Of a stretch of DNA of 48,044 bases, positions 1 through 9,857 are shown one piece after another. The stretch's first letter is position 1, and each line of letters begins with the position of its first letter. The notes under the pieces were generated by a model, which was not told where the DNA came from, did no database searches, and saw nothing but the letters and a program-made list of their open reading frames with translations. A program made the position numbers and the translations under genes. Source of the stretch: Desulfovibrio sp. (lineage in GTDB: Bacteria; Desulfobacterota; Desulfovibrionia; Desulfovibrionales; Desulfovibrionaceae); assembly GCA_017454855.1 (NCBI GenBank), contig JAFTCE010000039.1, positions 1-48,044 on the forward strand, read 5' to 3'.

Positions 1-189
1 GGTCGTGTGGTGGGTGAGATGGAAATGGCTTGGCCCCACTGCAAGATCGGCGTACTCACGTCAGAAGACAAGGCGCTGCTCTCGGCAGCGCGAGAGCGCG
101 GCTGGCGCGTGTTCTTGCTGGGCGAAGCCACCTTGCTTGCTACCCTGCGCAACCTTTTGGATGGTGAACCATGCACGCAACCCCTGTGA
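1..189 (+). CDS. C-terminal end of a gene cut by the window edge
   Basis: The first reading frame is open from base 1 to a stop at 187-189 and encodes the last 62 residues of a larger protein. The stretch around GEMEMAWPHCKIGVL, followed by AARERGWRVF, has an E...W..K pattern of the kind found at the ends of large DEAD/DEAH-type helicases or in PD-(D/E)XK-like nuclease domains. That reading is an inference from a short fragment. The frame overlaps the start of the next gene by 19 nt, so the two are probably co-transcribed and translationally coupled. The identity of the full protein cannot be settled from this window. Confidence 0.6.
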   Translation, partial: GRVVGEMEMAWPHCKIGVLTSEDKALLSAARERGWRVFLLGEATLLATLRNLLDGEPCTQPL

Positions 190-2255
190 CTATTGCTGTG
201 TCCGCAGATTTCTTCACGGCCTTCGCCGCCCTGCCCAGGCAGGAACAAGGCAAGGTCATGGCCTTTGTGGCCAAATTTCGGGAAAATCCCACGCGCACGG
301 GCTTCAATTATGAAAAACTCTACAACGCACGGGACAAGCGTTTCCGTTCCGTACGCATTGACGATTCCATCCGCTGCATCCTGCTCAAACCGGAATCCAA
401 CAACCTCTTCATGCTGCTCTGGGTGGACAGGCACGACGACGCGTACGCCTGGGCACGCAAGCGCCGCTGTGAAATTGATCCCATGACCGGTGGCCTGCAC
501 ATCGTCGTTGCCGAAGAATTCTACGAAGAAAGGCCCAAGGCCGCAGATGCCCCGGCCCCCAATGTCTGGGCCGACCTGCGCTCAGAGGATCTGACGGCCC
601 TGGGCATTGCCGAGCCCCTGCATGCCCAAGTGCGCTGCCTGCGCTCTGCGCAAGACCTGCAAGCCCTGCGCGACTATGTGTCTCCGGCCAGTTATGAGGC
701 CCTGTCCTTTCTGGAAGCCGGCGAAGCGCTGGCCGATGTCCTGGAATTGTATCAGGAAGGCATCAAGGACGCACAGCCCCAGGCTGCGTCCAGTAGGGAG
801 GACGCGGCCATGATCCAGGCCCTGAACAACCCCTATTCACGCCAGAATTTCTTTGTCAATCCCGAAGAGACGGAATTGAGCGAAATGATGCATGCGCCCC
901 TGGAAAAATGGCGCGTCTTTCTGCACCCCTCACAGCGAAGCATTGTGGAACGGGACTGGAGCGGAGCTGCCCGCATCCTGGGTGGCGCCGGCACGGGCAA
1001 AACCGTAGCGGCCCTGCACAGGGCAAAATGGCTGGCTCGCAACCGCTGTACGGGGGATGAAAAAATTTTTTTTACGACCTTCACCCACAATCTCGCCAGG
1101 GATCTGGAGCGGCAACTGACCGCCATCTGCACGCCGGAAGACCTGTCCAAGATAGAAATCACCAACCTCGACGACTGGGTCTACAAATTCCCGCAGCGCA
1201 ATTCCTACGAATATGAAATTGTTTTCTCCAACAAGGACAGCGAAAAAACCTGGGAAACAGCCATATCCATGCTCCCTCCCGACGCTGCTGCCAAAAACTT
1301 CCCGCCGTCCTTCTTCCGCGAGGAATGGGAACGCGTCATCCAGCCTCAGGAACTCATGACCCTGCAAGATTACTTCACGGCCTCACGCAAGGGCCGCAGA
1401 CAGGCCCTGTCGCGCAAGATGCGCAAAGAATTGTGGCCGGTCTTCGAGGAATTCCGCATCCTCCTCAATGAGCGCAAACAGCGCCAGCCAGCCGACGCCA
1501 TGCGTGAAGCCCGCGAACTCATCAAAAGCAACGACATGCGCCTCTACGCCCATGTCATCGTGGACGAAACACAGGACATGAGCGCGCAGGCCCTGCGCCT
1601 ACTGCGCGCCCTGGTTCCAGAGCAGGAAAACGACCTCTTTCTGGTCGGCGACGCCCATCAGCGCATCTATGGGCAAGCCATAACCCTCTCCAGCTGCGGC
1701 ATAAAAATCATCGGCAGATCCAAAAAATTGCGCATCAATTACCGCACGACCGATGAAATACGCAAAACGGCCATAGAGTTTCTGCAGACGGGCATTGCCG
1801 ACGATTTGGACGGGCAGGATGACGACGTTTCCAAAGATGTTTCCCTCATGCACGGTGCCATCCCGCAAAAGACGAACTTTCCAAGCAGTGCCAAGGCCAT
1901 TGCTGCCATGATTGCCAAGATCGAGGAAATTGCTGGCGCGGCTCCAGAATACCGCCGCAATATCTGCGTCACGGCCCAGACCAACGAGGGCGTCCAGGAC
2001 ATTGCCGCAAGGCTGGAGTCCGTGGGCCTGGGCGCCTATGTGCTGACGCGGGACAATCACGATTATGTGGACAATGACAAGGTACGTGTGGCGACCATAC
2101 ACAGGATCAAGGGACTGGAATTCGATATGGTCTTCATGCTGATCCATGAAAGCAAGGCCCAAATTGACGATGCCCTGCGCCTGGAACGGGAAAAATCCCT
2201 GCGCTATGTGGCCGCAACGCGTGCCCGCAGGGAACTGTTCATCTACACGTTCTAA
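171..2255 (+). CDS. UvrD/Rep-type superfamily 1 helicase with N-terminal RelE/ParE-like domain
   Basis: Predicted 694-aa ATP-dependent DNA helicase or translocase. SF1 motifs appear in order: Walker A GGAGTGKT at about residues 271-278, Walker B VIVDETQD at 462-469, then LVGDAHQRIYG (motif III), LRINYRTTDEI (motif IV), ATIHRIKGLEFD (motif V) and YVAATRARREL near the C-terminus (motif VI). The first ~105 residues look like a RelE/ParE toxin fold: a helical start, then a basic strand with FRSVRIDDSIRCILL and LLWVDRHDDAYAWA. Residues ~105-240 match no family I recognise. ATG 171 lies inside the previous frame, so the pair forms one transcription unit. The fusion suggests a nucleic-acid-surveillance or defence role rather than canonical UvrD repair, but this is inference. 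The helicase call is firm; the toxin-like fold is moderately supported. Confidence 0.88.
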   Translation: MHATPVTIAVSADFFTAFAALPRQEQGKVMAFVAKFRENPTRTGFNYEKLYNARDKRFRSVRIDDSIRCILLKPESNNLFMLLWVDRHDDAYAWARKRRCEIDPMTGGLHIVVAEEFYEERPKAADAPAPNVWADLRSEDLTALGIAEPLHAQVRCLRSAQDLQALRDYVSPASYEALSFLEAGEALADVLELYQEGIKDAQPQAASSREDAAMIQALNNPYSRQNFFVNPEETELSEMMHAPLEKWRVFLHPSQRSIVERDWSGAARILGGAGTGKTVAALHRAKWLARNRCTGDEKIFFTTFTHNLARDLERQLTAICTPEDLSKIEITNLDDWVYKFPQRNSYEYEIVFSNKDSEKTWETAISMLPPDAAAKNFPPSFFREEWERVIQPQELMTLQDYFTASRKGRRQALSRKMRKELWPVFEEFRILLNERKQRQPADAMREARELIKSNDMRLYAHVIVDETQDMSAQALRLLRALVPEQENDLFLVGDAHQRIYGQAITLSSCGIKIIGRSKKLRINYRTTDEIRKTAIEFLQTGIADDLDGQDDDVSKDVSLMHGAIPQKTNFPSSAKAIAAMIAKIEEIAGAAPEYRRNICVTAQTNEGVQDIAARLESVGLGAYVLTRDNHDYVDNDKVRVATIHRIKGLEFDMVFMLIHESKAQIDDALRLEREKSLRYVAATRARRELFIYTF

Positions 2256-2327: not shown

Positions 2328-3134
2328 TTATACCTTGGAGTCTTCATAATCCTCACAAGCGCGGCGGTAGGCTTCGCCATGGGCTGAGGTCTCCTGCTCT
2401 GCAGCGGACTTTTCCTTGGAAAGATCACCTACCTTGGTCTGCAACACCTTGCGCTGCTGCTTGGCCGTGTGCAACGTGCTGTTCCTGGTGCGGTGCCGAG
2501 CTTGCCGGGGCTTGGCATTGAGAGCGCGTTCTTCTTGGACAAAGGCCGCCTCGTACTGCTGCTCCAGGTCACGGCCACGGGTAACGGCATCGCCCATGAG
2601 GGCTATGGCTTCCTCGCGGCCCGAGGAAATTTCCGCAAATCGCCTCTGCGCCTCGTCGCGCGAGATTGCCTTGGACTTGATGGCGGCCAGCAGGGAGGCA
2701 AACTGCTGATCATAGCACTGCAGGGACGTTTTCGCCGAGGCGCTCACGATATCGAGATCGGAAATGTCCCCTTCGATATCTTGCAGATAGGCTGCCAGGC
2801 GCTTGTTTTCATCGATTTCCTTTTGCCTTGAGGCATGCATACCGCCGGTCAGACCGCCGGCCACAGCGCCCGTGGCGGCTCCGGCCACGGCGCCTTGCCA
2901 TCTGCCGCCGCTAAGCAGAAAACCCAAAGCCGCGCCGCCAAGGGTTCCTAAGGTTACGCCGGTAGCCGTCCCCTTGGCCACATCGTGTTCATGACTGCGC
3001 AGATCCTGGATGGGGCGGTAACATTGCGGATAATAGTTTACCGCTGTCTGCTGCGCGCCATAATGGCTGGCGCAGCCGGTTGTCAGCAAGGCAAGGACAA
3101 GTACGACCAACGATGCCGATGGGAAACGCTGCAT
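2328..3134 (-). CDS. Lipoprotein with glycine-zipper segment and coiled-coil tail
   Basis: A 268-aa protein starting MQRFPSASLVVLVLALLTTGC, whose hydrophobic stretch and terminal Cys form a signal-peptidase-II-like lipobox (T at -3 is slightly atypical). ATG 3134 is chosen because GGGAGGTGG precedes it and the signal peptide begins there; the frame stays open further upstream without a site. After a YYPQCYRPI segment come a glycine-rich region (about residues 45-95, GTATGVTLGTLGGAALG and GAVAGAATGAVAGG) typical of glycine-zipper membrane or oligomerisation segments, and a long charged, helical C-terminal half. Function is not recognised. It is the last gene of the minus-strand series that includes rtcB and prfH, separated from the previous gene by 104 nt. 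Confidence 0.75.
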   Translation of the reverse strand: MQRFPSASLVVLVLALLTTGCASHYGAQQTAVNYYPQCYRPIQDLRSHEHDVAKGTATGVTLGTLGGAALGFLLSGGRWQGAVAGAATGAVAGGLTGGMHASRQKEIDENKRLAAYLQDIEGDISDLDIVSASAKTSLQCYDQQFASLLAAIKSKAISRDEAQRRFAEISSGREEAIALMGDAVTRGRDLEQQYEAAFVQEERALNAKPRQARHRTRNSTLHTAKQQRKVLQTKVGDLSKEKSAAEQETSAHGEAYRRACEDYEDSKV

Positions 3135-3238
3135 AGTCCACCTCCCGTGACGATGAGCGCATGCCGTGTACGAGAACATTGCAACAAAAATTTTAGCAAT
3201 ATCCATGCCATCTACTGGCTTCAAGAGGCATTTCCTGT

Positions 3239-4408
3239 TTATTTCCGGCGCAAATGCGTCCTGTATACTTTGACTTCATGTTTTCCTTGAGGATTAATAG
3301 ACAAAAGGAAGCACTGTGTCGCCTTCCCGCTGCCGCTGCATTTCCAATGGCGCAAGGTATACATTTCAATGTTTTTGGGATTGGGGGGGCATTTTGCATT
3401 GTCGCTTTCAATGACAAGATTCTTGCCCCGGAAGCTGGCTGAAGCCCCGCCGCGACACACCAGATTGCCGTCGATGACGTGGATGCGGCCCTTGCCGCGC
3501 TTGTCAAAACACATTTCTGCCACAGCAGTTGTGGGGGGAATCCTGGCATTGTTCCAGGTACCGCCTGTAACGGGGTCAGAACGCCAGCAGCCGTCAAGAA
3601 AGGAAAGATCCTTCTTGGCCGACGCTGCAGGAGGTATTTGCACGTTTTCCCCTTTTTTGACTGCAGGCGGCGCCTTGGGCTGCTCCTTCTTCTCTGCCTG
3701 ATCTTTCTTTTCTTTCACCTGTACTTCTTTCCGCTCCGGCTCTTTTTTTGCCACTTCTGCCACAGAGCGGCCCTGGCGCGCCTCCTGTTGCGCCCGAGGA
3801 ACCGGCGTCATGGGCAGCAGTTCCCACAGCTCCACCGCCCTTGGTTCTGCTGGCTGCGCAGGCGTCGCCACCTGCGGCCCAGGTCGCACCACCTCGGGCG
3901 CAACGGCCTGCGGCTTTGCCGCCTGCGTGTCGGATCGTGTGCTTTCAGCGTGCCGGGGGACAATCGCGCCCTCGATCGCCTCCTGATTACCGCGCAGGGC
4001 ATCGTCGGGTGCTTCTCCTGGAGTATGGCGCTCGGCCTGGCCATCGGGCTTCGTCGCTTCCTGCCTGTCCGATTGTTCCGCAAAGCGCACGATTCCATAG
4101 GGCGTCAGCACACTTCCGTCCTCACGACGCGAGTATTGCCAGGCAGGTATACCGGAAGGCAGGACATACTGCCCATCGGGTTGGATGACGACGCCATCGG
4201 GCAGCAGCAGGGCGCCGTCTTCTCTGGTCACAAAGCCCCTGGGCAGCGCTGCCTCATAGATTGTGCCATCACGCAGGACAACGACAGGCCGACGTTGCAC
4301 CTTCACTTCCTGCGCAGAAGTGATGTTCTGCAATTGCTCTGCTGCCTGAAGATGCTGCGCATCCACAAAGAGCGCGGCAAAGGCAAGCAGCAGCATGATT
4401 TTTCCCAT
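3239..4408 (-). CDS. Secreted protein of unknown function with Pro/charged linker and C-terminal Cys-rich domain
   Basis: 389 aa from ATG 4408, which has GGAGG upstream and begins a classical signal peptide (MGKIMLLLAFAALFVDAQ, likely cut near LQA-AEQ). Three parts are visible. An N-terminal region carries repeated DG turns (RDGTIYEAALP, EDGALLLPDGVVIQPDG). The middle (~110-275) is low-complexity, rich in Pro, Ala, Lys and Glu, and looks like a periplasmic spacer. A C-terminal domain starts at SFLDGCWRSDP and has several Cys (MCFDKRG, LVCRGG, HWKCSG, TQCFLL), suggesting a disulfide-stabilised beta fold. I do not recognise the family. It lies 41 nt after prfH on the same strand, so it may be co-transcribed with the RNA-repair genes, although its envelope location makes a shared function unclear. 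Confidence 0.72.
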   Translation of the reverse strand: MGKIMLLLAFAALFVDAQHLQAAEQLQNITSAQEVKVQRRPVVVLRDGTIYEAALPRGFVTREDGALLLPDGVVIQPDGQYVLPSGIPAWQYSRREDGSVLTPYGIVRFAEQSDRQEATKPDGQAERHTPGEAPDDALRGNQEAIEGAIVPRHAESTRSDTQAAKPQAVAPEVVRPGPQVATPAQPAEPRAVELWELLPMTPVPRAQQEARQGRSVAEVAKKEPERKEVQVKEKKDQAEKKEQPKAPPAVKKGENVQIPPAASAKKDLSFLDGCWRSDPVTGGTWNNARIPPTTAVAEMCFDKRGKGRIHVIDGNLVCRGGASASFRGKNLVIESDNAKCPPNPKNIEMYTLRHWKCSGSGKATQCFLLSINPQGKHEVKVYRTHLRRK

Positions 4409-4449
4409 GTTCCCATCCCTCCGGCATCGTTCAAGCTCAAGGCATGCAT

Positions 4450-5064
4450 TCAACCTTTTCGAGTACTGGCCTGGATTTCCCTGTCTGTCAACCTTTCCAG
4501 AACGAAATCCATGCCGACATAGGTTCTGACGGCATTGCCCCGAACCACTTTCTGATGTTCCTGCCAGGCGGCGTCCTTCTGCCGGGCGTTTTCTGCCGCC
4601 TGCAGGGCGGCAAGCCGTGCCCGCAGGCGGGCCAGGGCGCGTTCCTTGTTCTGCTTCTGGCTGCGCTCATCGGAACAGACAACCGCAATGCCCGTTGCCT
4701 TGTGTACGACGCGGACAGCCGTCTCCACCTTGTTGACATTTTGCCCCCCGGGGCCGCCGCTGCGAAAAACGCTTACTTCCACAGCGCTGTCCTGGGCAAT
4801 CTCCTCCAGCTCCGGCACAACGCTCACATGGATAAACCAATTCTTGCGCTTATGGTGGGGACGCAGCGGGCTTTTGCACATCCAGCAGACAGTGCCGCAG
4901 ACGTCGGCCAGTCCGGTCGGCCCCTCCAGCAGAGCCGAGGCATAGGCATGATGCACGTCCACAATGCGCGTGCCAGGAAATTCTTTCACCAGGGCCGCAC
5001 TCAAGAGACGCACGGCAATTTTGCATTCTTCAGGACCCTGTCCCGATGTGATTTGCAGCAACAT
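4450..5064 (-). CDS. prfH: Peptide chain release factor homologue PrfH (ribosome rescue)
   Basis: 204 aa, the usual size of PrfH, which lacks the stop-codon-reading domains of RF1/RF2. The [10 protein letters not shown] motif at about residues 104-113 is the catalytic GGQ loop that triggers peptidyl-tRNA hydrolysis. The preceding segment with [15 protein letters not shown] is typical of PrfH, and the basic C-terminal helix ([17 protein letters not shown]) fits class-I release factors. The family releases peptides from ribosomes whose 16S rRNA has been cleaved in the decoding centre, after which a paired RtcB reseals the break. Here the rtcB stop and the prfH ATG overlap as TGATG, with GGGAG upstream; a GTG three bases earlier is an alternative start. 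Confidence 0.93.
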
Positions 5065-6179
5065 CACTTCTGGCTCCCGGCCTTAAAATTGTACACTGGC
5101 CGCAAAATATCCGTAATGTCCACGCAATCTCCCAGCGATGCGGCCAAATCCTCCCTGGTTCTATAGGCAAAAGGGGCTTCATCCAAAGTATTTTTGGAGA
5201 TGCAGCTTGCGTGTATGCCCTGCATGGCTTTTTTGAACTCGGTCAGGGTGTGCTGCTCGCGCGTTTGGGTGCGCGTGCTGATCCGCCCGGAACCGTGCGG
5301 CGCAGACCAATTCCATTCCGGATTGCCCTTGCCAAGGCCCACGATGGAGCCATCGCGCATGTTGACGGGGATGATGACGCGCTCTCCAAGGGCTGCCGAT
5401 ATGGAGCCTTTGCGCAAGATCGGTGTGCTGCCCGAAAAATCAATGTAATTGTGCGCACACTCCCACGCTGTCACGGCCTCCCACTTCATACCCCTGAGGA
5501 TGACCCTGGCAATGCGCTCCCGATTGTCCGAGGCGAACTGCTGCACCATACGCATGTCGTGCAGGTATTGCTCGCGCAAGTCGCCTTCAAGCCAGGTGAG
5601 TTCATAGGGAACATCCGTGCGACGCCCCTGCCGGAGATAGCATTCGCAGACTTCCTTGCCCAAATGCCTGCTGCCCGTGTGGATGATCAGGTAATGCGCG
5701 CCATCGCCGCCGCAGGCGATCTCCACAAAATGATTGCCTCCGCCCAAGGTACCAAAGCTTTTCCTGGCCTTGTCAACCTGAACGTGCTTCAGACAGCAGA
5801 GGTCTTCCAGCTCCCCGCAGTCCACAGGTCTCTCGTGGATGGCAAAGCCGGAGGGCACTTTTTCGGCAATAAGCCTGTCCAGCCTTGGGAACTCGGGCGA
5901 AAATCGCTCAAGACGCAGTATGGACACGCCACAGCCGATGTCCACGCCCACGAGATTGGGCATGACCTTGTCCGAAACCAGCGTCATTGTCAGTCCAATG
6001 ACGCAGCCATTGCCGGGATGGACATCCGGCATGACCCGTATTCTGTTGCCTTCCATTGCCGGGCAATCGCATATCTGCCGAATCTGAGCCACGGCATACT
6101 CGTCTATGGCCACATTGGGGTTGTCTACCGTGTACACAAGGGCGTCCGCAAACTGTCCATGAATTTCTTTTACCTGCAT
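5064..6179 (-). CDS. rtcB: RtcB-type RNA-splicing/repair ligase (PrfH-associated type)
   Basis: 371 aa, slightly shorter than the ~400-aa RtcB of E. coli. RtcB joins a 2',3'-cyclic phosphate or 3'-phosphate to a 5'-OH RNA end using GTP and Mn2+. Visible signatures are [11 protein letters not shown] (~52-62), VGVDIGCG with metal ligands Asp80 and Cys83, GGGNHF (~147-151), HTGSRH (~167-172), CAHNYID (~241-247), and PHGSGR, whose His295 is the expected guanylylated residue. GGGGAG precedes the ATG. Immediate coupling to prfH identifies it as the member of the rescue/repair pair that reseals nicked 16S rRNA. It follows the VIT/VWA gene by 100 nt on the same strand. Confidence 0.95.
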
Positions 6180-6224
6180 ACTACTCCCCTGGGAATTTTC
6201 AGGCCACGTTCAGAAGCGGCGCTT

Positions 6225-6273
6225 GGCGGCGGCACGGCCTGCACTCTAGCGGCGTGCCAGGTCGGCCACCGCC
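6225..6273 (-). other. GC-rich nested inverted repeats in the VWA-rtcB gap
   Basis: In the 100-nt spacer, GGCACG (6231-6236) can pair with CGTGCC (6253-6258), and GGCGGCGGC (6225-6233) with GCCACCGCC (6265-6273) with one wobble. The two stems are partly alternative, as in an attenuator or RNase-processed spacer. There is no U tract. It could set the rtcB:VWA ratio or be a small structured RNA; which one is unknown. Confidence 0.4.
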
Positions 6274-6279
6274 CCGGCT

Positions 6280-8571
6280 CTAGGGCCTTGTCCAATCATC
6301 AAGCAAGGCTTTAACTGTGACAATTTCCTTCGTGGATATGTTGCGTATTCCAAAACGAATGTTGCGCAGGCTGTGCCTGTCCACCTTCAGAGTATGGCGC
6401 TCAATCAACCAAAGGACGAAGATACTCCAAAGCTCTTCCATACTCCGGTTGGTTCCAGCTTGGATTTCCGTCAGCTTGTTCTGCACGTCGTCCATGAGGC
6501 CGCCCTTTTGCACAAGGGCCTGAACATCCTGCACGGATGACAAGGAAGACATCTTGTCGGCGTATTGGGCGACAAAGGTTCTGAACCGTACGGCAATATG
6601 TTCTTCGACGGCATCTTCTTCGACGGCGTTAAGTCCGTCATCCTCGCAGGCCGAAATGTTGTCTAGATTTGACAACAATAATTTCCTCGGCGAAAAACAA
6701 TGATTAAGCTCCCTTTCAAGAGGTTCTTCTGCCAGGCGACTAGCCATCTTTCTGCTCGGGGCACTCGCGCAAATACCGGCCAGCGGCTCCGCAAGACAAG
6801 CCGCCACTCCAGAACAGAACTGCACGAAAGGCGTTCGTTTGTGCGCGGGCATCTGCGGCGTCTTCTGCACCGTGGGCAGCATCGTGATCTTTTCCCCGTC
6901 GGGCCGCTCATAGACCAGGATCAGAGACGTCTCCTTGCTCATGAGCTTGTATTTGAGCGCCAACTCTTTCTTTTCCCTACTGGAATTCGCTTCTTCCAGA
7001 CGCCGCATCATGGCCAGCCGGAACAAATCGGGCGTGCTTGTCATCTCCAGACCTTCGGCCATGGCCGCATAGTCACCGCCGTCGGCTTGCCAATGTAGCA
7101 CTGGTGCCGCACTGGGCGTCCCGCCGCGCATGAGTGCGAAGCAATGCAGGGTTTCCCCGCGATACAGATAGCGGGGCGTTTTTGTCTTCCAGAGCGTTTC
7201 CCCCTGCCAGTCTATGCGGACATTATGGAAATACCCTTGGCGCATGCGGGCAAACATGCGCACAATGGCATCGGCCATGTTTTCGCGCGGCGTCACAAGC
7301 TCGCAGGCCCCGCCCGTCTTTTCGGCCAACTCCCGCAGGAGGCTTTCGGCAGGCGATGCGCCCACGCCAATGGCAAAGACACGCTGCCCGGACTTACGGG
7401 CCTGGGCTATGACGCCTTCCACATCCCAAATATCGCCGTCGGTGATCAAGAGTACGCCCGCAGGCATTTCCGCCGGACTCTCTATCTGATAAACCGCTGC
7501 AAGCGCACTTCCCATTTCCGTACCGCCCATATCGGCATAGGTCTTGTCGATGGCCTCGGAAAATTGCCCAAGGGTTTGTTTCGTGCAGGGCAGCATGCTG
7601 CCAAAAATCTGGTGTACGTCACTGCCAAAGCGTGTGTAGGAGACATAATCGCCTTCACGGAACAAGGCGCACACCTTGCGCAAGCCCTGTATGCCCTGCT
7701 CAATGCGCTCGCCGCCCATAGAACCGGAGCAATCCAGCAAAATTTTGCAGGCCAAGGGCGCGGCGGTATCGTCAGGCATGGTGGGCACAAAGCTCGCTGC
7801 GACCAGAGTTTCCTCCCCTTCTGTCACGCACTGGGCATGGGAATCGTTGACGACATCCTCAATGAGCAGAATAAAATCCCGATCCAGGGCCGCAGGCCCT
7901 TCAATGCCAAAGGACAGCCCTCCGTCGGGGAGACTTTGGGCCTGCAGCCCATGACTGGGGCACGATACCTTGCCCTTGGCCATCTGCCCGTACAGGGTGA
8001 CATGCACTCCAAAGGAATAGTGCGCAGCAGGACTGACCACCTCGGTTTCATGATCCGCCAATCCCCCCGGGCCGTGAGCATCCCCGTAGCGCTCGCTGAT
8101 CACCGTCGGGATATTCAGGCGCACCCTGTTCTGCTCCATACGCAGCATGCGCGCGCAGTGCAGTTCCACACTGACGGTTTCCCCAGCTTTGATATTGCCA
8201 AGATTTGCCGTACAGAGGCCCTTTGCGGACATCTCAACCATGATGGCACTGTCTCCGCTCAGGATGGCTGTTTCGTACTTTTGCTCGGCCTTGTGCTTTT
8301 CCACGATCTCACCGTGGAGGTGCTTGCCGTCCATGCTCGCGCTCATGCCCAGCAAGGCCGTGTCCCAGGCCAGGGGAAAGGTATAGATGACTTCCAGGGG
8401 CTTTGACGTTTCGTTTTTGTAGGTCTGTCTGATGGTGGACGAAAACAGCAGTCCGCGCACCTCCCCGGTCACCTCCACTGACTTGAAAGCTATGGCCGAT
8501 GGATTTTCGTCGTGAACGTTGCGCATGCTGCCATAGGGAAAAATCTCCGGTTCTACTATTGCTTGTGCCAT
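6280..8571 (-). CDS. VIT domain / von Willebrand factor A domain protein
   Basis: 763 aa from ATG 8571 (AAGGA six bases upstream). The N-terminal ~150 residues match a VIT domain (vault/inter-alpha-trypsin: EVTGEVRGLLFSSTIRQTY, LEVIYTFPL, GEIVEKHKAEQKY). A VWA domain follows: ILLDCSGSMGG supplies the DxSxS metal site at Asp280/Ser282/Ser284, with the MIDAS Thr in MGGTEMGSA and LLITDGD further on. The last ~200 residues are unassigned and mostly helical. No signal peptide, so it should be cytoplasmic and may act as a metal-dependent scaffold. The frame is open to an alternative ATG at 8754 that also has an AGGGA site and would add 61 Trp-rich residues. It heads the series leading to rtcB and prfH and is divergent from a WYL regulator. 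Confidence 0.88.
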   Translation of the reverse strand: MAQAIVEPEIFPYGSMRNVHDENPSAIAFKSVEVTGEVRGLLFSSTIRQTYKNETSKPLEVIYTFPLAWDTALLGMSASMDGKHLHGEIVEKHKAEQKYETAILSGDSAIMVEMSAKGLCTANLGNIKAGETVSVELHCARMLRMEQNRVRLNIPTVISERYGDAHGPGGLADHETEVVSPAAHYSFGVHVTLYGQMAKGKVSCPSHGLQAQSLPDGGLSFGIEGPAALDRDFILLIEDVVNDSHAQCVTEGEETLVAASFVPTMPDDTAAPLACKILLDCSGSMGGERIEQGIQGLRKVCALFREGDYVSYTRFGSDVHQIFGSMLPCTKQTLGQFSEAIDKTYADMGGTEMGSALAAVYQIESPAEMPAGVLLITDGDIWDVEGVIAQARKSGQRVFAIGVGASPAESLLRELAEKTGGACELVTPRENMADAIVRMFARMRQGYFHNVRIDWQGETLWKTKTPRYLYRGETLHCFALMRGGTPSAAPVLHWQADGGDYAAMAEGLEMTSTPDLFRLAMMRRLEEANSSREKKELALKYKLMSKETSLILVYERPDGEKITMLPTVQKTPQMPAHKRTPFVQFCSGVAACLAEPLAGICASAPSRKMASRLAEEPLERELNHCFSPRKLLLSNLDNISACEDDGLNAVEEDAVEEHIAVRFRTFVAQYADKMSSLSSVQDVQALVQKGGLMDDVQNKLTEIQAGTNRSMEELWSIFVLWLIERHTLKVDRHSLRNIRFGIRNISTKEIVTVKALLDDWTRP

Positions 8572-8769
8572 TGGGTATTCCTTGTTTTTTGATTTTATCT
8601 GCATCTTGCGCCGCTGCTGCATAATCTCACTGCACAATGCGCCAGCGTAGCGCCCTTGCCATTTCTCCCAAATATACCTGCCCAATGCCTCGGAAGAAAA
8701 TTTTTGCATCAGCTCCCACCACTGCGGGGGAGGCTTGGTATGTCTGTAGGACATGGCATTCCCTCGCTC

Positions 8770-8798
8770 TTGCCTTCGTGGACAACCTAGGGCATACT
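8770..8798 (+). promoter_or_regulatory. Candidate promoter of the WYL regulator gene
   Basis: TTGCCT, a 17-bp spacer and CATACT resemble a sigma-70 promoter reading toward the WYL gene. The predicted start point falls inside the palindrome at 8800-8816. Confidence 0.5.
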
Positions 8799-8799
8799 A

Positions 8800-8816
8800 T
8801 TTCCAGAATCTGGAAA
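8800..8816. promoter_or_regulatory. Perfect palindrome, probable operator
   Basis: TTTCCAGAATCTGGAAA is an uninterrupted two-fold symmetric 17-mer beginning 2 bp after the -10 element. A repressor bound here would block the WYL gene start and could also act on the divergent VIT/VWA gene. A second A/T palindrome, CAAAAAATTTTTG, lies at 8830-8842. The likely ligand is the WYL protein itself; this is inferred from position only. Confidence 0.5.
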
Positions 8817-8852
8817 AAAGAAGATATTTCAAAAAATTTTTGAGGTCTGCCC

Positions 8853-9857
8853 ATGCCCGCCAAAATGGATCCCGACGGCTCCCCCGGCGTCAAATTGCTG
8901 CGTTTTTTTCGCACGCTCCTCGTGGACAGCAACAAACACTATCAGGCCGATCTGGCCGCCAAACTCCACTGCTCACCGCAAACCATCCTGCGCATGGCCA
9001 GCGATATCGAAAGGGTCATTGGAACAAGTCTGGAAAGCGGTCTCGACAATCGACGCCGCTGGTATCGCATTGTCAGCAACAAACCCAACACCTTGGGATT
9101 GGAGTTCGAAGAACTGCGCTATCTGAGCATCTGCCGAGATCTGGCGACGCCGACCTTACCCGCACATATCCGCAAGCGCGTGGATGACACCATCCTCACG
9201 CTCTCCGTCATGATGCACGAACAGGACTCGCCGGAAGTGACTTCACACTTCGCCTTTTTCACCAAGGGACGCATAGATTATGCGCCACACTACGCCAAGC
9301 TGGAAACGCTGCTTCGGGCCATGCAGGAACGGCGCGTGTGTCTCGTGAAATACAAGGCATCGGGCAAGGCTACGGTTCGGGAACACCGCTTTGCTCCCGA
9401 TTCTTTTATCAGCATGAGTCAAGCCATATACGCCACAGGCGCGCTGTTGAGCGAAGATTTTTCCCAAGTGCGGCATTTTACGCATTTGGCAGTACACAGA
9501 ATGCAGGCCGTGGCCACCATGAACAGATACTATGAAGGTGACTTTCCCAAGGTGGCGGATGGAACCTTCGGCCTGCCGTGGCACGAACCGCGGGAGTATC
9601 ACATCCACTTCCGCGCTGGCAGAGCGGCAGACTATGTGAGTGAGCGCATTTGGGCGGATCAACAGCAACTTGAAACGCAAGAAGACGGCAGCGTCATCCT
9701 GCACATCACCACACGCAGCGAGCCAGAACTCATGGCCTGGGTACGCAGCTTCGGGGACGAAGCGTCACTACTGACACAAGGCACATTGTCTCCGTCAAAA
9801 TGCACCCCGCCAGTGTTGACAGACGTTGGCGCAGAGGCAAAAATATCTCCTGCATAG
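8853..9857 (+). CDS. WYL-domain HTH transcriptional regulator
   Basis: 334 aa. The N-terminal ~60 residues form a DeoR/HTH_11-like winged helix (LLRFFRTLLVDSNKHYQADLAAKLHC...TILRMASDIERV). Residues ~155-225 are a WYL-type ligand-binding domain (CLVKYKASG, EHRFAPDSFI, QAIYATGALL) followed by a WCX-like C-terminus. The signature Trp-Tyr-Leu is replaced by Ile-Tyr-Ala, so ligand contacts may differ. GAGGT precedes the ATG. WYL regulators often govern defence or nucleic-acid-damage genes and bind nucleic-acid ligands; here the divergent VIT/VWA-rtcB-prfH series is the obvious target. An EF-G paralogue follows 28 nt later on the same strand and could be read through. Confidence 0.85.
   Translation: MPAKMDPDGSPGVKLLRFFRTLLVDSNKHYQADLAAKLHCSPQTILRMASDIERVIGTSLESGLDNRRRWYRIVSNKPNTLGLEFEELRYLSICRDLATPTLPAHIRKRVDDTILTLSVMMHEQDSPEVTSHFAFFTKGRIDYAPHYAKLETLLRAMQERRVCLVKYKASGKATVREHRFAPDSFISMSQAIYATGALLSEDFSQVRHFTHLAVHRMQAVATMNRYYEGDFPKVADGTFGLPWHEPREYHIHFRAGRAADYVSERIWADQQQLETQEDGSVILHITTRSEPELMAWVRSFGDEASLLTQGTLSPSKCTPPVLTDVGAEAKISPA

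Follow-up and report, generated by a model that had tools for sequence, protein, structure and literature searches.

Introduction

In Escherichia coli, the RNA ligase RtcB2 and the release factor PrfH protect cells against colicin E3, whose cut in 16S rRNA falls within the decoding centre (PMC9223846). RFH-RtcB neighbourhoods consist of such a core pair with accreted accessory genes and were seen as a counter to ribosome-targeting effectors by Burroughs and Aravind in 2019 (PMC6514570); the same source places Cdc48 with a release-factor hydrolase in eukaryotic ribosome-associated quality control (RQC). The WYL proteins CapW and BrxR repress at inverted repeats (PMC9122588, PMC9122601), and RtcR, the regulator of RtcR-Ro60-RtcBA operons, is a CARF-bearing enhancer-binding activator (PMC7790460). 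Here we analyze a locus that resembles each of these systems in part. It lies at positions 2,328 to 9,857 of a 48,044-nucleotide (nt) stretch of Desulfovibrio sp. (NCBI GenBank assembly GCA_017454855.1, contig JAFTCE010000039.1, positions 1 to 48,044 of the forward strand), referred to as the window, where an rtcB-prfH pair belongs to a gene series that faces a divergent WYL regulator gene.

As in E. coli, rtcB overlaps prfH, the release factor carries GGQ and the ligase has an RtcB active site, but the window RtcB is of another subgroup and the locus adds a WYL protein, a VIT/VWA protein and an operator-linked AAA+ ATPase. With the RFH-RtcB neighbourhoods it shares a core pair with accessories, those named there being TPR, a Pol-beta-type nucleotidyltransferase, a ZnR protein and a charged helical protein; WYL and vWA are absent from the main text of PMC6514570, where AAA appears only for CDC48 or in reference numbers. 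The regulator is like BrxR and CapW in its WYL and WCX domains, in the inverted repeat near the promoter and in a link to defence genes, here in a sister genome (PMC9122601, PMC9122588), but it would govern rRNA repair genes, and its solved-structure matches are absent (single protein) or weak (profile). A dedicated regulator and a VWA protein near RtcB recall the RtcR-Ro60-RtcBA operons, whereas the window series has neither a TROVE domain nor RtcR (PMC7790460). A WYL protein or AAA+ ATPase joined to RtcB-PrfH was not found in the covered parts of PMC1586002, PMC9223846, PMC4012209, PMC7790460, PMC6514570, PMC7824862, PMC12606134, PMC11090510 and PMC9503650, which is not a claim of absence from print.

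Results

The first-pass annotation had described genes for VIT/VWA, RtcB, PrfH, SrfA-like and lipoprotein products as one minus-strand series opposite a divergent WYL gene. This layout stands: all six open reading frames lie where it placed them, and the families agree (VIT, PF08487; VWA, PF00092; RtcB, PF01139; an RF-1 domain), with WCX over its cut-off and WYL just under.

The regulator gene (8853..9857, plus strand) encodes a predicted WYL/WCX transcription regulator with a Pfam WCX score of 39 bits; its WYL domain reached 19.8 bits against a cut-off of 21.8 in the window and 22.8, over the cut-off, in the genome search. The Protein Data Bank (PDB) gave no match at E<=0.01 for the single protein and a weak profile match (E ~0.007) to two chains named WYL domain-containing protein. 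Upstream of this gene lies a candidate WYL operator, the perfect inverted repeat TTTCCAGAATCTGGAAA (8800..8816), which begins 53 nt ahead of the WYL ATG and lies 45 nt upstream of the possible VIT/VWA start at 8754. With up to 3 mismatches allowed, the window holds no other such site. Two features of a BrxR/CapW-type regulator, WYL plus WCX domains and an inverted repeat at the promoter, are present in silico.

The repeat recurs at WYL promoters of other genomes. The form [AT]TTCC-N7-GGAA[AT] occurs within 500 nt upstream of the WYL gene at 10 of 21 loci, window counted, against a mean of 0.07 and a maximum of 2 loci in dinucleotide shuffles. Only the N7 spacing is enriched, other spacings from 2 to 13 giving at most 2 loci, and the 10 promoters merge to 7 distinct ones, three being near-copies of each other and two of another. 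Of 61 same-genus genomes, own included, 33 match the WYL gene at E<=1e-5 and 24 of these do so at E<=1e-60; two WYL genes were counted in the source genome (G000), two in G604 and four in G569. Its orthologs occur in varied contexts, and neither VIT/VWA nor RtcB nor PrfH was present in any of 20 fetched ortholog neighbourhoods, which cover mostly the upstream side (3.4 to 10.6 kb upstream, 0.3 to 4.2 kb downstream). The nearest WYL (G232, 63%) is close to a type I restriction-modification operon that starts ~1.3 kb off on the divergent side.

A scan of the whole 2.95-Mb source genome, at no more than 2 mismatches to the strict repeat, returned three places: the window, C171:14003-14019 and a site inside a ruvA-like ORF (the ruvA label, like the SrfC and signal-peptide labels, was assigned by eye). 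The repeat read backwards had no place in the genome, and no site within 2 mismatches arose when the window was shuffled 60 times (2.9 Mb in total). The C171 site carries 2 mismatches, is unlinked to the window and ends 38 nt before the start of a gene (C171 14058-16244) for a 728-aa tandem AAA+ ATPase with two PF00004 modules. The VIT/VWA and AAA+ promoters are alike beyond the repeat, with an alignment score of 68 against a mean of 33 and a maximum of 50.5 in 500 shuffles.

This ATPase is related to proteins encoded beside rtcB-prfH elsewhere, AAA neighbours that had been noticed before the repeat search led to C171. With the G569 ATPase, whose gene directly precedes WYL-RtcB-PrfH, it shares 38% identity across 730 aa. 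The G604 counterpart, encoded between WYL and RtcB in an open frame of just ~220 aa, is 47% identical across 205 aa, and the one preceding RtcB in G030 is 53% identical across 162 aa. Its best solved matches are of the Cdc48/p97 type, followed by Rix7 and Afg2 (best E-value 7e-24); it shares with these the two AAA modules but is bacterial and aligned over one AAA module only. No PDB match was listed for its first 250 residues.

The neighbourhood of rtcB-prfH was compared across 62 non-viral loci: 29 from named genomes (L047-L075), 5 from plasmid records and 28 from the window's phylum (G030, G569, G279, G604 and 24 more). The 29 were drawn from at least 80 listed; the other 51 had no match to the window RtcB in the locus, most matching the RF-2-like part only and L088, L093 and L115 nearly full length. 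Within the 62, L043, L341, L345 and L357 lack a match to the window RtcB. From 80 viral loci, 13 were taken (L201-L213; L201/L213 and L202/L203 match identically), with the nearly full-length L240 left out. Four of the 62 non-viral loci have a WYL gene no more than 2 kb from rtcB-prfH: L051 (Bacteroidales, divergent), G030, G569 (two WYL genes) and G604. The L052 locus is truncated on the 5' side, where a WYL gene would not be seen, and in L059 a WYL gene 3.9 kb off, with genes between, was not counted. All four WYL-bearing loci have an AAA hit, versus 2 of the 58 others (L052, L341), an overlap with a chance of ~3 in 100,000 if loci are independent; the true support is weaker, G569 and G604 being members of one family and L051 and L052 encoding an ATPase of another type.

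In a tree of 21 WYL rows, from which some WYLs with stops or near-copies were omitted, the rtcB-linked ones do not form one clade: three changes are needed, two of them forced by well-supported branches, with a long-branch warning. WYL control of rtcB-prfH therefore seems to have arisen more than once, though most rtcB-prfH loci manage without it. The idea of WYL as a general partner of the pair was weakened by the 24 further same-phylum loci, which lack it.

At the core of the series, the RtcB gene (5064..6179, minus strand) and the PrfH (RFH) gene (4450..5064, minus strand) share one base within the string TGATG. RtcB scores 179 bits with PF01139, over the cut-off, and keeps the metal and guanylylation residues, named as in the Pyrococcus enzyme; this identifies it as an RtcB ligase. 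A conserved Tyr-Lys is Tyr-Arg in both the window protein and a Lachnospiraceae relative (L047). PrfH passes TIGR03072 (169.9 bits, cut-off 166.65) and keeps GGQ in the alignment. The window RtcB missed the RtcB2-type models PRK09588 (141 vs 407 bits) and TIGR03073 (113 vs 271.8 bits), and it is 52% identical to L047 and 46% to L201, both PrfH-paired, compared with 28% to E. coli RtcB2. The source genome has a second RtcB (G000:C107:4215-5306, L001), 27% identical to that of the window.

The RtcB-PrfH pair is rare and sporadic around the source genome. Among 199 family genomes, a single one has a PrfH over the TIGR03072 cut-off, and one more real pair lies just under it (G030, L005). With the window PrfH as query, 4 of 395 phylum genomes gave a match at E 1e-26; nearer PrfH queries matched in 9 of 37 genomes of the family of G569 and in 18 of 291 of the order of G279, query genomes counted. 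Viral contigs searched with a single RtcB sequence yielded no relative.

Three of the pair's settings elsewhere stood out. A Shinella plasmid (L044 1092-8597) clusters RtcR, a Ro60-type vWA protein, RtcB, a second RtcB and PrfH. A Desulfobulbaceae metagenome-assembled genome (L064 2294-5205) has AbiL-type genes (AbiLi and AbiLii models) downstream of rtcB-prfH. A 4-kb contig of G030 (L196) holds AAA, RtcB, PrfH, a WCX-bearing fragment and the RNA-repair gene Hen1 together.

The first gene of the series (6280..8571 with a start at 8571 or 8754, minus strand) encodes a VIT + VWA protein (Pfam VIT 91 bits, VWA 57 bits) with a metal ion-dependent adhesion site (MIDAS) motif, DCSGS, GGTE and TDG being conserved in the alignment. 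Its best solved matches are PARP4 (via the VIT part), an unnamed protein, ITIH proteins and a chloride-channel-like protein. A predicted structure from a two-row alignment had a mean predicted local distance difference test score of 46.1, too low to support a fold search; better values (blocks 52 to 81) were confined to the helical C-terminal part, which starts near residue 660. The start at 8754 would add a 61-aa N-terminal extension (8572-8754, minus strand) that is absent from aligned relatives and has no Pfam match.

The VIT/VWA protein is, by its gene neighbourhoods, an accessory without a conserved link to rtcB-prfH. The first-pass annotation had suggested that it could stand in for the Ro-like partner and had named co-occurrence with rtcB-prfH in other genomes as a check; the protein has no TROVE domain and sits beside the pair in 0 of the 62 non-viral loci, an outcome that the annotation itself had named as showing chance adjacency. 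With 0 of the 13 viral-contig loci as well, VIT/VWA was rejected as a conserved partner of the pair. None of 11 loci of VIT/VWA kin had an rtcB or prfH match, some contigs being short, and in 10 of the 11 a MerR-like gene lies directly upstream, a count that left out the hits L037-L039 and L306-L310. The recurrent MerR-VIT/VWA gene pair is found in L045, L046, L188, L189, L191-L195 and L305. There is no MerR-like gene directly upstream of VIT/VWA in the window, the next gene there being the divergent WYL.

Likely starts with a plausible ribosome site were found at 8571 or 8754 for VIT/VWA, 6179 for RtcB, 5064 for PrfH, 4408 for the SrfA-like gene and 3134 for the lipoprotein gene. The intergenic gaps are 100 nt (VIT/VWA to RtcB), 41 nt (PrfH to SrfA-like) and 104 nt (SrfA-like to lipoprotein), and a simple scan of these three found no minus-strand terminator. 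The end of VIT/VWA holds one minus-strand promoter-like match (6323-6295), in a region where such matches exceed chance only slightly (7 found versus 3.6 in shuffles, standard deviation 2.1). One transcript across the series is plausible from this arrangement.

The last two genes encode a SrfA-like protein (3239..4408, minus strand; NCBIfam SrfA_fam 47 bits, under the cut-off of 150) with a signal-peptide-like start by eye, and a TagQ-like lipoprotein (2328..3134, minus strand; NCBIfam TagQ 144.5 bits, under the cut-off of 300). The lipoprotein is matched in 56 of the 61 genomes of the genus, own included, with identities up to 69% elsewhere. A SrfA-like gene is near it in 6 of 9 fetched genus loci, none of which has rtcB or prfH, and SrfB (PF07520) comes next in L297. 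These envelope genes, earlier called unexplained, are accounted for by a genus-wide TagQ/SrfA set and look unrelated to the module, of which we judge them not to be members.

On its other flank, the module is bordered by a UvrD-like helicase gene (171-2255, plus strand) with an unassigned N-terminal part of ~240 aa that looked toxin-like by eye; Pfam and PDB sequence searches with its first 150 aa gave nothing of note. Synteny around EF-G, used for insertion boundaries, was uninformative: 0 of 12 fetched EF-G loci share another window gene at E 1e-15.

Discussion

Gene order, domains, kept active-site residues, the recurrent operator-like repeat and ATPase homology together favor, with moderate confidence, a WYL-repressor-controlled ribosome-damage regulon of at least two transcription units. 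One unit would be VIT/VWA-RtcB-PrfH in the window and the other the tandem AAA+ ATPase on C171. By analogy with known WYL repressors, a WYL dimer would occupy the inverted repeat at both promoters and repress them, and would leave the DNA once a damage-derived ligand binds it. PrfH would then free the peptide from ribosomes stalled by an rRNA cut, and RtcB would religate the 2',3'-cyclic-phosphate/5'-OH ends of the rRNA. We hypothesize that the Cdc48-like ATPase remodels the damaged particle, perhaps with VIT/VWA, which may be its MIDAS-type adaptor. VWA adaptors are often used by AAA+ proteins, as in MoxR-VWA and midasin. What survives of the earlier proposal is the repair-rescue module with its own control, given the WYL gene, the recurrent operator-like repeat and WYL beside rtcB-prfH in 4 of 62 loci; VIT/VWA as the Ro60 stand-in does not survive.

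Several observations weigh against such a regulon. Of the 20 WYL orthologs fetched, 11 lack the motif in their upstream 500 nt, and 3 of the other 9 carry it more than 300 nt away. The repeat was not found in the 300 nt before the WYL genes of G569, G604 and L051, whose WYLs are distant. A WYL gene within 2 kb is missing from 58 of the 62 non-viral rtcB-prfH relatives, among them all 24 further same-phylum loci. The G030 WYL is merely a WCX-bearing fragment, and with G569 and G604 from one family there are about three independent WYL-rtcB-prfH cases. L051 and L052 encode a shorter ATPase of a different kind, with likeness confined to the AAA module (27-31%).

A rival account is chance adjacency, in which WYL controls only itself and VIT/VWA, and rtcB-prfH is a separately promoted, laterally acquired pair downstream. 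The lack of VIT/VWA beside the pair in all 62 non-viral relatives, the single family genome out of 199 with PrfH over the cut-off, the weak promoter-like match before rtcB and the varied contexts of WYL orthologs would all fit. Such an account leaves aside that the repeat-bearing AAA+ gene belongs to a family found beside rtcB-prfH elsewhere, that WYL recurs next to the pair and that the 100-nt VIT/VWA-rtcB gap has no terminator match, and we regard it as unlikely. A far more improbable alternative, to which we give very little credence, is that VIT/VWA replaces Ro60 as the RNA-chaperone partner of RtcB. Ro60 also has a VWA domain, and a Ro60-type gene accompanies RtcB and PrfH in Shinella, but VIT/VWA has no TROVE domain, its best solved matches are PARP4, the unnamed protein, ITIH and the chloride-channel-like protein, and its kin stand behind MerR-like genes in 10 of 11 loci and with rtcB or prfH in none.

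A narrower role in anti-phage defence, with WYL derepressing on infection and RtcB-PrfH countering phage or host RNases, we judge about as doubtful as chance adjacency. The nearest WYL is close to a type I restriction-modification operon, AbiL-type genes follow rtcB-prfH in L064, L051 has an IetA-like AAA and a candidate-defence gene, and 48% of BrxR homologues sit with known defence systems (PMC9122601). Set against this, PADLOC models were matched only by WYL and the flanking helicase among the 7 window proteins scanned, and it is a colicin against which the E. coli pair has been shown to act.

The WYL-controlled regulon may be a bacterial counterpart of RQC, a tentative proposal that we rate below even chances. 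One WYL switch would stand over PrfH, RtcB, a Cdc48-like ATPase and a MIDAS-bearing VIT/VWA adaptor, which would jointly free, dismantle or hold, and re-seal rRNA-cut ribosomes. In eukaryotic RQC, the release-factor hydrolase joined to Cdc48 is Vms1. The locus hints at a ribosome-repair pathway larger than the known two-gene pair. With a regulator, an operator sequence and an unlinked ATPase apparently under the same operator, what switches RtcB-PrfH on, and which helper factors it may use, become directly testable.

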